Made by a program: the position numbers and the translations under genes. A stretch of 64,000 nt of DNA from Shinella kummerowiae. GTDB lineage: Bacteria > Pseudomonadota > Alphaproteobacteria > Rhizobiales > Rhizobiaceae. Below, in pieces: positions 47,872 through 56,437 of this stretch; position 1 is the first letter of the stretch, and the number at the start of each line of letters is the position of its first letter. The notes below the pieces were generated by a model. That model searched no databases. It saw nothing but the letters and a program-made list of their open reading frames with translations, and had not been told where the DNA came from. The stretch spans positions 1 through 64,000 of the forward strand of contig NZ_WUMK01000006.1 of assembly GCF_009827055.1 (NCBI RefSeq), written 5' to 3'.

Positions 47872-47886
47872 GTTCAATATTTGTTC
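47872..47886 (+). promoter_or_regulatory. LexA (SOS) box of dinB
   Basis: A direct repeat GTTC (47872-47875), seven bases, GTTC (47883-47886), exactly the alphaproteobacterial LexA operator. It ends six bases before the dinB ATG. Confidence 0.85.
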
Positions 47887-47892
47887 CCGACC

Positions 47893-49239
47893 ATGAGCAC
47901 CGCGACCATGCATTTTCCGGGCTTCTGCCGCGACTGCCTTGCCGGGCAGCCCGCTGGCCTGCGCCGATGCCGGGCCTGCGGCAGTCCGCGTCTCGTCTAC
48001 CATGACGAGCTCTACGACCTGACGCTCGCCCATATCGATTGCGACGCCTTCTATGCGTCGATCGAGAAACGCGACAATGCGGAGCTTGCAGACAAGCCCG
48101 TCATCATCGGCGGCGGCAAACGGGGCGTCGTCTCGACGGCCTGTTATATCGCGCGCATCCATGGGGTTCGCTCCGCCATGCCGATGTTCAAGGCGCTGGA
48201 AGCCTGCCCCCAAGCCGTCGTCGTCCGGCCGGACATGGAAAAATACGTGCGCGTCGGTCGCGAGATCCGCACGATGATGCAGGAACTGACACCGCTCGTG
48301 CAGCCGCTTTCCATCGACGAGGCGTTCCTGGAACTGAGAGGCACCGAGCGTCTGCACCACGATCCCCCTGCCCGCGTGCTCGCGAGATTCGCCCAGCGCG
48401 TCGAGAAGGAGGTCGGCATCACCATTTCGATCGGCCTTTCCTACTGCAAATTTCTCGCCAAGGTCGCCTCCGACCTCAACAAGCCGCGCGGCTTTTCCGT
48501 CATCGGCGAGGCCGAGGCCTTGGACTTCCTGCGTGACAAACCGGTGCGCCTGATCTGGGGCGTCGGAAAGGCCTTTGCGGAGACGCTGGAGCGCGATGGC
48601 ATCCGTACCGTCGGCCAACTCCAGACCATGGAGGAAACCGACCTGATGCGCCGCTACGGCGTGATGGGCAAGCGCCTCTTCAACCTCTCCCGCGGCCAGG
48701 ACGACCGCGAGGTCCATATCAACGACCCGGCGAAAAGCGTTTCGGCGGAAACCACCTTCTTCGACGACATTTCGGGGTATGACGCGTTGGTGACGCATCT
48801 GCGCCACCTCAGCGAGAAGGTCGCCGCGCGGCTGCGCAAATCCGGCATTGCCGGCCATACCGTCGTGCTCAAGCTGAAAACCGCCGATTTCAAGAGCCGG
48901 ACACGCAACCGCAAGCTTGAAGACCCGACCATGCTCGCCGACAAGATCTTCCGCACCGGCATGGAGCTCCTGCGCAAGGAAACCGACGGCACGAAATACC
49001 GCCTGATCGGCATCGGCGTCAGCGACCTCGCCGATCCCGGCCGCGCCGACCCGCCCGATCTCGTCGACCCCGCCGCCACGCGCCGCGCGGCGGCAGAAGC
49101 CGCGATGAACACGCTGCGCGACAAATTCGGCAAGGCGAGCGTGGAGACCGGCTATACGTTCGGCAAATCGCGGGCAGAACGTTTTCACGAAAAGTTGACC
49201 CTCAAATCCGCCGGAAACCCCGACACCCCCACCGAATAA
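47893..49239 (+). CDS. dinB: DNA polymerase IV (DinB) with N-terminal zinc ribbon
   Basis: Y-family translesion polymerase, 448 aa from ATG 47893 ([12 protein letters not shown]). An N-terminal four-cysteine module (CRDC...CRAC) of about 35 residues precedes the catalytic domain, an extension seen in alphaproteobacterial DinB. The palm has [17 protein letters not shown] and the SIDEAFLEL carboxylates. The thumb and little-finger domains are complete. The LexA box makes it SOS-controlled. Confidence 0.94.
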
Positions 49240-55642: not shown

Positions 55643-55729
55643 TCAGATTCCAAAGAGGATGACGGAGAAGCTGGCGACGAACATGGCCATGGAGGCGAAT
55701 GCAGCAAGGTCACGAAAGAAATCGGTCAT
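55643..55729 (-). CDS. 28-aa SOS-controlled membrane peptide, SidA-like candidate
   Basis: Too short for normal gene calling. ATG 55729, stop 55643-55645. The ribosome site GGGAG lies eight bases upstream. The first seven residues (MTDFFRD) are polar and aromatic, followed by 21 uninterrupted hydrophobic or small residues ending LFGI: one membrane helix. Its promoter region holds TTGACA and a perfect LexA box. Caulobacter SidA is a 29-residue SOS-induced inner-membrane peptide that inhibits division through FtsW/FtsN. Size, topology and control all match. I have no alignment to prove homology. The gene lies 128 bases upstream of dnaE on the same strand. Confidence 0.72.
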   Translation of the reverse strand: MTDFFRDLAAFASMAMFVASFSVILFGI

Positions 55730-55750
55730 TGTGGCTCCCTTTCCTTTTAT

Positions 55751-55785
55751 GTTTCTAGTTTGTTCTATTCTTGTTCTCATGTCAA
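55751..55785 (-). promoter_or_regulatory. Promoter with LexA box for the 28-aa peptide
   Basis: On the minus strand TTGACA (55785-55780) precedes GAAC-N7-GAAC (55776-55762), the reverse of GTTC-N7-GTTC, placed in the spacer. A third, imperfect half-site (GAAAC, 55755-55751) follows at the same 11-base period. The -10 box is weak (CAAACT at 17 bases). LexA bound here would block initiation. Confidence 0.8.
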
Positions 55786-55858: not shown

Positions 55859-56437
55859 ATGAAGTCGTTGATTGCCGCGCTCATGCTGTCGGCTGCCCTG
55901 CCCGCCTTTTCATCCGCCGCGGATTTTCCGGCAGACCGCATCATCGCCATGGCAAGCGGCGACTGGAACAAGGACGGCACGCCGGATCTTGCCCTGGTGG
56001 CAACGCCGGGAGACGATAGCGGGGATGACAACGGGCTCTATGTCTACGTTGCCAAACCGGAGGAGAACCGGCTGACGCTTGCTTTGTCCCTACCCAACAC
56101 GATCTGGGGCAACATGACCATGTACGGCCAGGAGCCGGAGCTGACGCCTCTCGCCAACGGCTCCTTCACGCTGACGACGAAAAACGATTCAATCGGCCGT
56201 GATCGCTGGCGGCAGTCGCTGACCATCGCCTATCGCAATTTCGATTTCATCGTCGCGGGCTACACCTACTCGTCCTACGACACGCTCAATCCGGATGGCG
56301 GAAGCGAATGCGACCTCAACGTGCTGACCGGCAAGGGCAAGGCCGGCCACGGCGCCGTCGCCGGCCAGGCACAATTCGTGCTGCTGAAGGACTGGAAGGA
56401 CGAGATCGCCCGCAACATCTGCGGGCTCGACAACTAA
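55859..56437 (+). CDS. Secreted hypothetical protein with FG-GAP-like motif
   Basis: 192 aa from ATG 55859, which follows GGAGG. The signal peptide is MKSLIAALMLSAALPAFSSA. The mature protein has GDWNKDGTPDLALVATPGDD, a DxNxDG calcium-loop/FG-GAP-type repeat, then beta-rich stretches, and a single cysteine pair late (ECDLN, NICGLDN) that could form a disulfide. Function unknown. It is the only plus-strand gene between dnaE and proS. Confidence 0.72.
   Translation: MKSLIAALMLSAALPAFSSAADFPADRIIAMASGDWNKDGTPDLALVATPGDDSGDDNGLYVYVAKPEENRLTLALSLPNTIWGNMTMYGQEPELTPLANGSFTLTTKNDSIGRDRWRQSLTIAYRNFDFIVAGYTYSSYDTLNPDGGSECDLNVLTGKGKAGHGAVAGQAQFVLLKDWKDEIARNICGLDN

Follow-up and report, generated by a model that had tools for sequence, protein, structure and literature searches.

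A candidate SidA-like peptide gene behind a LexA-type operator upstream of dnaE in Shinella kummerowiae and other rhizobia

Immediately upstream of dnaE, the 64,000-nucleotide stretch of Shinella kummerowiae DNA considered here (referred to as the window) contains a gene of 28 codons that we take, with a probability of roughly 0.77, to encode the rhizobial ortholog of SidA, namely, a LexA-controlled, one-helix inner membrane peptide that would hold the late divisome inactive. In Caulobacter, SidA is described as a 29-residue inner membrane inhibitor that acts through FtsW (PMC4211646), with deletion of sidA relieving the filamentation caused by the absence of lexA (PMC12700426). Judging from the sequence comparisons presented below, the gene very probably encodes a rhizobial form of SidA, one that lies beyond the reach of the curated SidA model. 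Among open-licence PMC papers listed in SidA-centred searches, no rhizobial SOS division inhibitor of the SidA kind was found.

The peptide-encoding frame is read from the minus strand, opening with an ATG at 55729-55727 and closing with a TGA at 55645-55643, and its predicted product comprises 28 residues that include one long hydrophobic stretch (Table 1). The sequence found at the position of the ribosome-binding site is plausible as such, and is GGA-rich, as is the corresponding position in many of the promoters compared. Accordingly, the 28-codon frame and good ribosome site described in the initial annotation were both borne out, as was the perfect GAAC-N7-GAAC box said to lie between TTGACA and the start codon. 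A simple sigma-70 consensus scan of the locus found no promoter, such that TTGACA is without a clear -10 partner by that consensus. The stop codon of the peptide gene is separated from dnaE by 128 nt. In the upstream direction, genes encoding LolD-like, LolC-like and ProS-like proteins are found beyond a divergent ORF (55859-56437, plus strand). An 8-kb segment that includes the locus is 89.2% identical to Shinella sp. PSBB067, with 91% coverage.

Table 1. Features of the peptide gene locus in the window.
Feature	Position	Strand	Basis or remark
SidA-like peptide gene	55643..55729	minus	28 codons + TGA; peptide MTDFFRDLAAFASMAMFVASFSVILFGI
Probable ribosome-binding site AGGAAAGGGAG	55735..55745	minus	Read from sequence
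Third operator half-site AAAC	55751..55754	minus	One mismatch to GAAC; 11-base phase
LexA box GAACAAGAATAGAAC (GAAC-N7-GAAC)	55762..55776	minus	Sequence pattern
TTGACA, probable -35 element	55780..55785	minus	Sequence read; ends 3 nt before GAACAAGAATAGAAC
dnaE, DNA polymerase III alpha subunit, 1165 aa	52017..55514	minus	NF004226, TIGR00594; conserved downstream neighbour

The divergent ORF, which separates the peptide gene from lolD in the window, begins with a signal peptide-like sequence and includes a DWNKDGTPDLALV stretch, presumably of the FG-GAP-like kind. A Pfam scan of this ORF returned no match, and no gene is listed at the corresponding place in a Sinorhizobium meliloti record. The LexA box lies between the starts of the peptide gene and of this ORF.

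The number of GAAC-N7-GAAC boxes in the window (three, as compared to 1.95 expected) is at the level of chance, and their number in the genome (156, as compared to 105 for a reversed-pattern control) reflects only a modest enrichment. As such, the box was rejected as evidence when taken by itself. That the locus amounts to more than chance is instead argued by conservation of the box among relatives. A search of 151 Rhizobiaceae genomes with the window peptide yielded matches in 65 at E values of up to 10, some of them weak. The best 30 loci, including that in the window, all lie upstream of dnaE and in the same orientation, with a perfect GAAC-N7-GAAC box appearing within 250 nt before the peptide match in 27. 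When 199 genomes of the order were searched, 22 matches were obtained, three of which were already known. Nine of the 19 new loci precede dnaE, eight of these with the box, while the remaining ten, for which there was no dnaE in the stretch examined, look like chance.

A census anchored on dnaE rather than on the peptide was also conducted across the Rhizobiaceae, relying on one genome per genus, with dnaE being found in 60 of 61 genomes. In 32 of these 60 loci, the kilobase upstream of dnaE contains a perfect box in the coding-strand orientation, and in all 32 a short hydrophobic ORF is found 5-110 nt behind the box. In four further loci, the box that precedes the peptide deviates at one or two positions, while 23 loci contain neither box nor peptide and one (L335) is incomplete. 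When the 59 loci of at least 600 nt were subjected to 100 mononucleotide shuffles, a mean of 0.67 boxed loci (maximum 3) was obtained, as compared to the 32 observed; a box in the opposite orientation was seen in two of the 59. Across the three censuses performed (those of the Caulobacteraceae and of the rest of the class are described below), a hydrophobic ORF lies behind the box in 74 of 75 boxed regions, with one genome (G697) being counted twice; of 2380 positions drawn at random from regions lacking the box, only 231 are followed by such an ORF.

Constraint on the encoded peptide was assessed in the 25 best of the 30 Rhizobiaceae loci, the window included; the five left out include two (L035 and L037) with a longer N-terminus. 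The frame spans exactly 28 codons in all 25. Mean pN and pS values were 0.21 and 0.60, respectively, the median dN/dS was 0.22 (232 unsaturated of 300 pairs), and second and third codon positions accounted for 8% and 57% of the differences, respectively. The ratio of means was 0.34 in the peptide frame, yet rose to 0.83 and 4.28 when the frame was shifted. The reading of these 28 codons as a real coding gene is well supported by such comparisons. The opposing view, namely, that a chance ORF happens to lie behind a chance box and that no gene exists here, draws on the chance-level number of boxes in the window, yet is refuted by the dnaE-linked loci, the census, the shuffles and the dN/dS values, and must be deemed exceedingly improbable.

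The Caulobacter LexA box reads GTTC-N7-GTTC (PMC9578287), and GAACAAGAATAGAAC corresponds to the same pattern on the other strand. The third half-site that the initial annotation had placed on the same 11-base period is present with one mismatch, and its phase is conserved. Specifically, a half-site with at most one mismatch was found at offset +22 in 19 and at offset +33 in 13 of the 32 boxed Rhizobiaceae promoters, as compared to 0-6 of the 32 at each of 16 out-of-phase offsets between +16 and +32. At the in-phase upstream offset of -11, only two promoters contain a half-site. Given this in-phase enrichment, the third half-site belongs to a conserved 11-base array that runs toward the gene. 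In 18 of the 32 loci, TTGAC appears within the 14 nt that precede the box. The genome from which the window originates encodes a lexA scoring over the model cut-off, preceded by GAACACATATGGAAC. Based on the box at the peptide gene and on the presence of a lexA with a box of its own, LexA would be expected to bind this promoter and the peptide gene to be induced as part of the SOS response.

The initial annotation had asked whether sidA of Caulobacter is likewise a neighbour of dnaE, and this was next considered. Caulobacter sidA is designated CCNA_02004 (PMC10769358) and dnaE is designated CC1926 (PMC1839093). In the family designated f115, frames of 29 residues precede dnaE. When named genomes were scanned with the DnaE sequence of a member of this family (G822), 38 loci were obtained, 26 of which are from Caulobacter, Phenylobacterium, Brevundimonas or the like. 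Both box and peptide are present in 23 of these 26, two are too short and one (L287) lacks the box; no box was found in the 12 loci that derive from elsewhere. In Caulobacter vibrioides DSM 9893 (97% identity to the query), a 29-residue frame lies behind GAACATCTTGTGAAC and 35 nt upstream of dnaE, and the encoded peptide matches NF033228 (cell division inhibitor SidA, div_inhib_SidA) at 2e-20. The question can accordingly be answered in the affirmative. In a census of 30 Caulobacteraceae loci, 22 present a perfect box and a 29-codon frame, six present this frame behind a box with one mismatch, and two are too short. In several Caulobacteraceae promoters (among L239-L268), the perfect box is accompanied by an additional, imperfect repeat nearby, GAAC-N7-GAAT, which does not share the phase of the rhizobial array.

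To compare the two groups of peptides, a profile of 32 rhizobial sequences, placed in register on a [DN]-core, was aligned with a profile of 21 of the 22 Caulobacteraceae peptides, set on Met; L257, with a 29-codon frame and a GTG start, was left out. Registering the rhizobial peptides in this manner placed Met in column 1 in 27 of the 32. Alignment of the two profiles using hhalign gave a probability of 93.3% and a score of 26.8, without gaps over columns 1-18. By contrast, 200 permutations of the rhizobial columns, with the first column held fixed, gave a mean score of 8.2 (standard deviation 2.1, maximum 17.3), with none reaching 26.8. For single sequences, the homology was weak. C. vibrioides SidA scored only 2.3 bits against the rhizobial HMM, while with another HMM build, other Caulobacteraceae peptides scored up to 22.6 bits, several of them below 5. 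Shuffled versions of single sequences reached the real score in 15% of cases for L252, of the C. vibrioides type, and in 39% for the mis-trimmed L257; a set of decoy ORFs was discarded, as it included genuine members of the family. Because such single-sequence shuffles are unfavourable for some members, the claim of homology is based on the profile-profile comparison.

The curated SidA model was not seen to reach beyond the Caulobacteraceae among the genomes and peptides scanned. NF033228 scored over the cut-off in none of the 151 Rhizobiaceae genomes and in one of 14 control genomes (Caulobacter vibrioides being among the nine that ring). In the genome of the window, the best match, itself weak, was found elsewhere than at the peptide gene, and the window peptide does not attain the curated score of >35 bits. 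When 35 peptides were scanned at E values of up to 10, the model matched 11 and missed 24; the scanned alignment included 11 Caulobacteraceae peptides.

In other respects, the window peptide presents what is expected of SidA. At 28 residues, as compared to the 29 of SidA, it is of the expected length of about 29 residues, contains a single predicted membrane helix and shares with SidA a core in which positions 6-7 are R-[DE] and position 17 is F. Moreover, a GAAC-N7-GAAC sequence marks the promoter and the gene lies right before dnaE in both Caulobacteraceae and rhizobia. At the same time, the rhizobial peptides lack the FVWMMC stretch of SidA, their operator is extended in the 11-base phase and the rhizobial branch is missed by NF033228, with the window peptide and C. 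vibrioides SidA sharing 21% identity. This low identity and the lack of a match to NF033228, together with the ease with which short one-helix peptides arise in evolution, could be taken to reflect convergence, i.e., a peptide of separate origin, also under LexA control, that has ended up at the same place and works like SidA. Such convergence would, however, have had to reproduce the same neighbour and the same type and orientation of operator, as well as a gapless profile match beginning at Met that was equalled in none of 200 permutations, and a [RK]D-x-A core that is common to peptides of several other families; it is, as such, improbable. Of the two options offered by the initial annotation, a rhizobial counterpart of SidA is thus much more likely than an analogue, given the shared position, operator type and profile common from Met. 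By place, control and profile, the rhizobial peptide can be considered as an ortholog of SidA, albeit one that falls outside the curated equivalog NF033228.

The distribution of the gene in the rest of the Alphaproteobacteria was considered across 89 families, in which 107 dnaE loci spanning 600 nt or more, hand-picked from the listed matches, were read (three shorter loci were left out). Six of the 107 (L062 and L091-L095) were chosen because the peptide profile had matched there. Box and peptide were found together in 20 loci from 14 families, numbers which include the six profile-chosen loci as well as two loci from Caulobacteraceae, one of which (G697) also appears in the Caulobacteraceae set. 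L215 (family f212), with a box 909 nt away and no peptide, is the only such boxed locus in this sample. Many, although not all, of the peptides from across the class contain the [RK]D-x-A core, with lengths and tails varying. In a quick DnaE tree built from the first 66 class loci and 15 others, most absences fall within one large block. A class-wide search with a 22-row peptide profile was also tried, yet proved noisy, with most matches resembling chance, and was replaced by the dnaE-anchored reading.

In the S. meliloti record, proS, lolC and lolD are followed by a gap of 469 nt in which no gene is listed and then by dnaE. This gap encodes MADFVRDLAAFASMSLFIVSISVIALGL behind GAACGGAAATAGAACAAAAAGGGAAC. 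As the PLSDB gene tables are incomplete, the absence of an annotated gene here is only indicative. A Ribo-seq study of S. meliloti lists sORF25, in the part of the report that bears on it, as a novel sORF in the dnaE1 5'-UTR and without a function (PMC10117765). Given that it occupies the same place between lolD and dnaE, sORF25 is probably the MADFVRDLAAFASMSLFIVSISVIALGL frame, with the letters being presumed to agree. The cultures used in that study were mostly in log phase in minimal medium (PMC10117765) and therefore, if sORF25 is indeed this gene, the peptide may be translated to some extent even when no damage is inflicted. The initial annotation had termed the gene overlooked. This holds in terms of annotation, since the window peptide matches no entry in NCBIfam (0 families at E values of up to 10) or Pfam and since no S. 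meliloti gene is listed, albeit in an incomplete table; it does not hold in terms of detection, since the S. meliloti gene was probably already seen as sORF25 (PMC10117765).

The authors of that study raise, in general terms, the possibility that some 5'-UTR sORFs act as upstream ORFs (PMC10117765). Applied to the present locus, the peptide would be a leader whose translation regulates dnaE, a reading in line with the annotation of sORF25 inside the dnaE1 5'-UTR (PMC10117765) and with the retention of a place before dnaE across many families. Yet selection acts on the amino acid sequence, as reflected in the dN/dS values, the gap between the peptide gene and dnaE varies from ~4 to 654 nt among the best Rhizobiaceae loci (with the dnaE start being extrapolated), the predicted RNA fold of the gap in the window is no better than that of shuffled sequences (z -0.99) and the sidA gene of Caulobacter is functional when supplied on a plasmid (PMC4211646). 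A leader role is, accordingly, unlikely. The gap in the window also contains a weak terminator-like hairpin; the scan, which covered 551 bases, identified two such hairpins, as compared to 1.0 expected.

Were the peptide to act as SidA does, RecA-driven cleavage of LexA would clear the tandem operator and allow the peptide to be made. The peptide would then insert into the inner membrane as a single helix and most likely hold the late divisome, i.e., the FtsW/FtsI/FtsN septal synthase complex, inactive, and damaged cells would consequently not divide. The rhizobial peptide is thus predicted to reside in the membrane, and the proposed block of division via FtsW/FtsI/FtsN is modelled on Caulobacter SidA. 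An alternative activity would be that of a TisB/DinQ-type membrane toxin that, once induced by the SOS response, depolarises the membrane and slows growth. TisB likewise combines an SOS box with a small hydrophobic peptide. DinQ shares this anatomy (PMC3567139). The profile common with SidA and the location at the same locus as sidA nonetheless speak against a toxin, rendering this option quite improbable.

Models place SidA on transmembrane segment 7 of FtsW, with confidence that is not high (PMC13396833). DidA of Caulobacter is also a small one-helix division inhibitor that acts on the FtsW/I/N complex (PMC4211646), yet comprises 71 residues, is SOS-independent and is induced by DriD. The Gram-positive SOS division inhibitors YneA, SosA and ChiZ are similarly damage-induced membrane inhibitors of late division, although they are larger and rely on other operators. 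To our knowledge, these three are unrelated in sequence to the SidA-like peptide. YneA is described as contacting FtsW (PMC13396833).

Entry of SOS transcription into dnaE is plausible, considering the 5'-UTR annotation in S. meliloti and the gap of only 35 nt in C. vibrioides. It can be suggested, if only tentatively, that sidA and dnaE form an old alphaproteobacterial checkpoint unit, in which a single tandem-operator SOS promoter would both block septation and feed dnaE, and that rhizobia arrest division in this manner after damage and possibly also in the bacteroid stage. The rhizobial bacteroid stage is filamentous. Should the identification of the peptide as a SidA ortholog prove right, a single small gene would account for the arrest of division upon DNA damage in much of the Alphaproteobacteria, and sORF25 of S. 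meliloti, an orphan of Ribo-seq, would gain a function. The unexplained linkage to dnaE would, moreover, become a testable question, namely, whether division arrest and replicase supply are served by one promoter.

Several additional observations were made. A 42-residue annotated hypothetical protein of the Rhizobium beringeri plasmid pRlX6 (L381:1480-1608) contains a SidA-like core, ARDGAAFLSMSLFI, that scores 20.3 bits against the rhizobial HMM. No LexA-type box was found within ~180 nt upstream of its gene, even allowing one mismatch, and the protein is a possible plasmid-borne relative. A tblastn search of plasmids with the window peptide returned no match, although the peptide of a relative found S. 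meliloti there; the low-complexity filter is possibly responsible, and a similarly negative search of phages was accordingly given no weight. A 3.72-Mb S. meliloti record labelled as plasmid pSymB (L379, CP090106.1) contains dnaE, proS and lolCD, and seems to be a chromosome under the wrong label. Elsewhere in the window, the minus strand presents a GAAC-N7-GAAC box (47872-47886) that reaches into the start region of a gene encoding a DinB-type translesion polymerase (47881-49239; PF00817); on the strand of that gene, the box reads GTTC-N7-GTTC. Finally, the genome contains three more DnaE-family genes (G000 C1:622850-625789, C3:140248-143184 and C37:438938-441892), which are probably of the ImuC/DnaE2 type.
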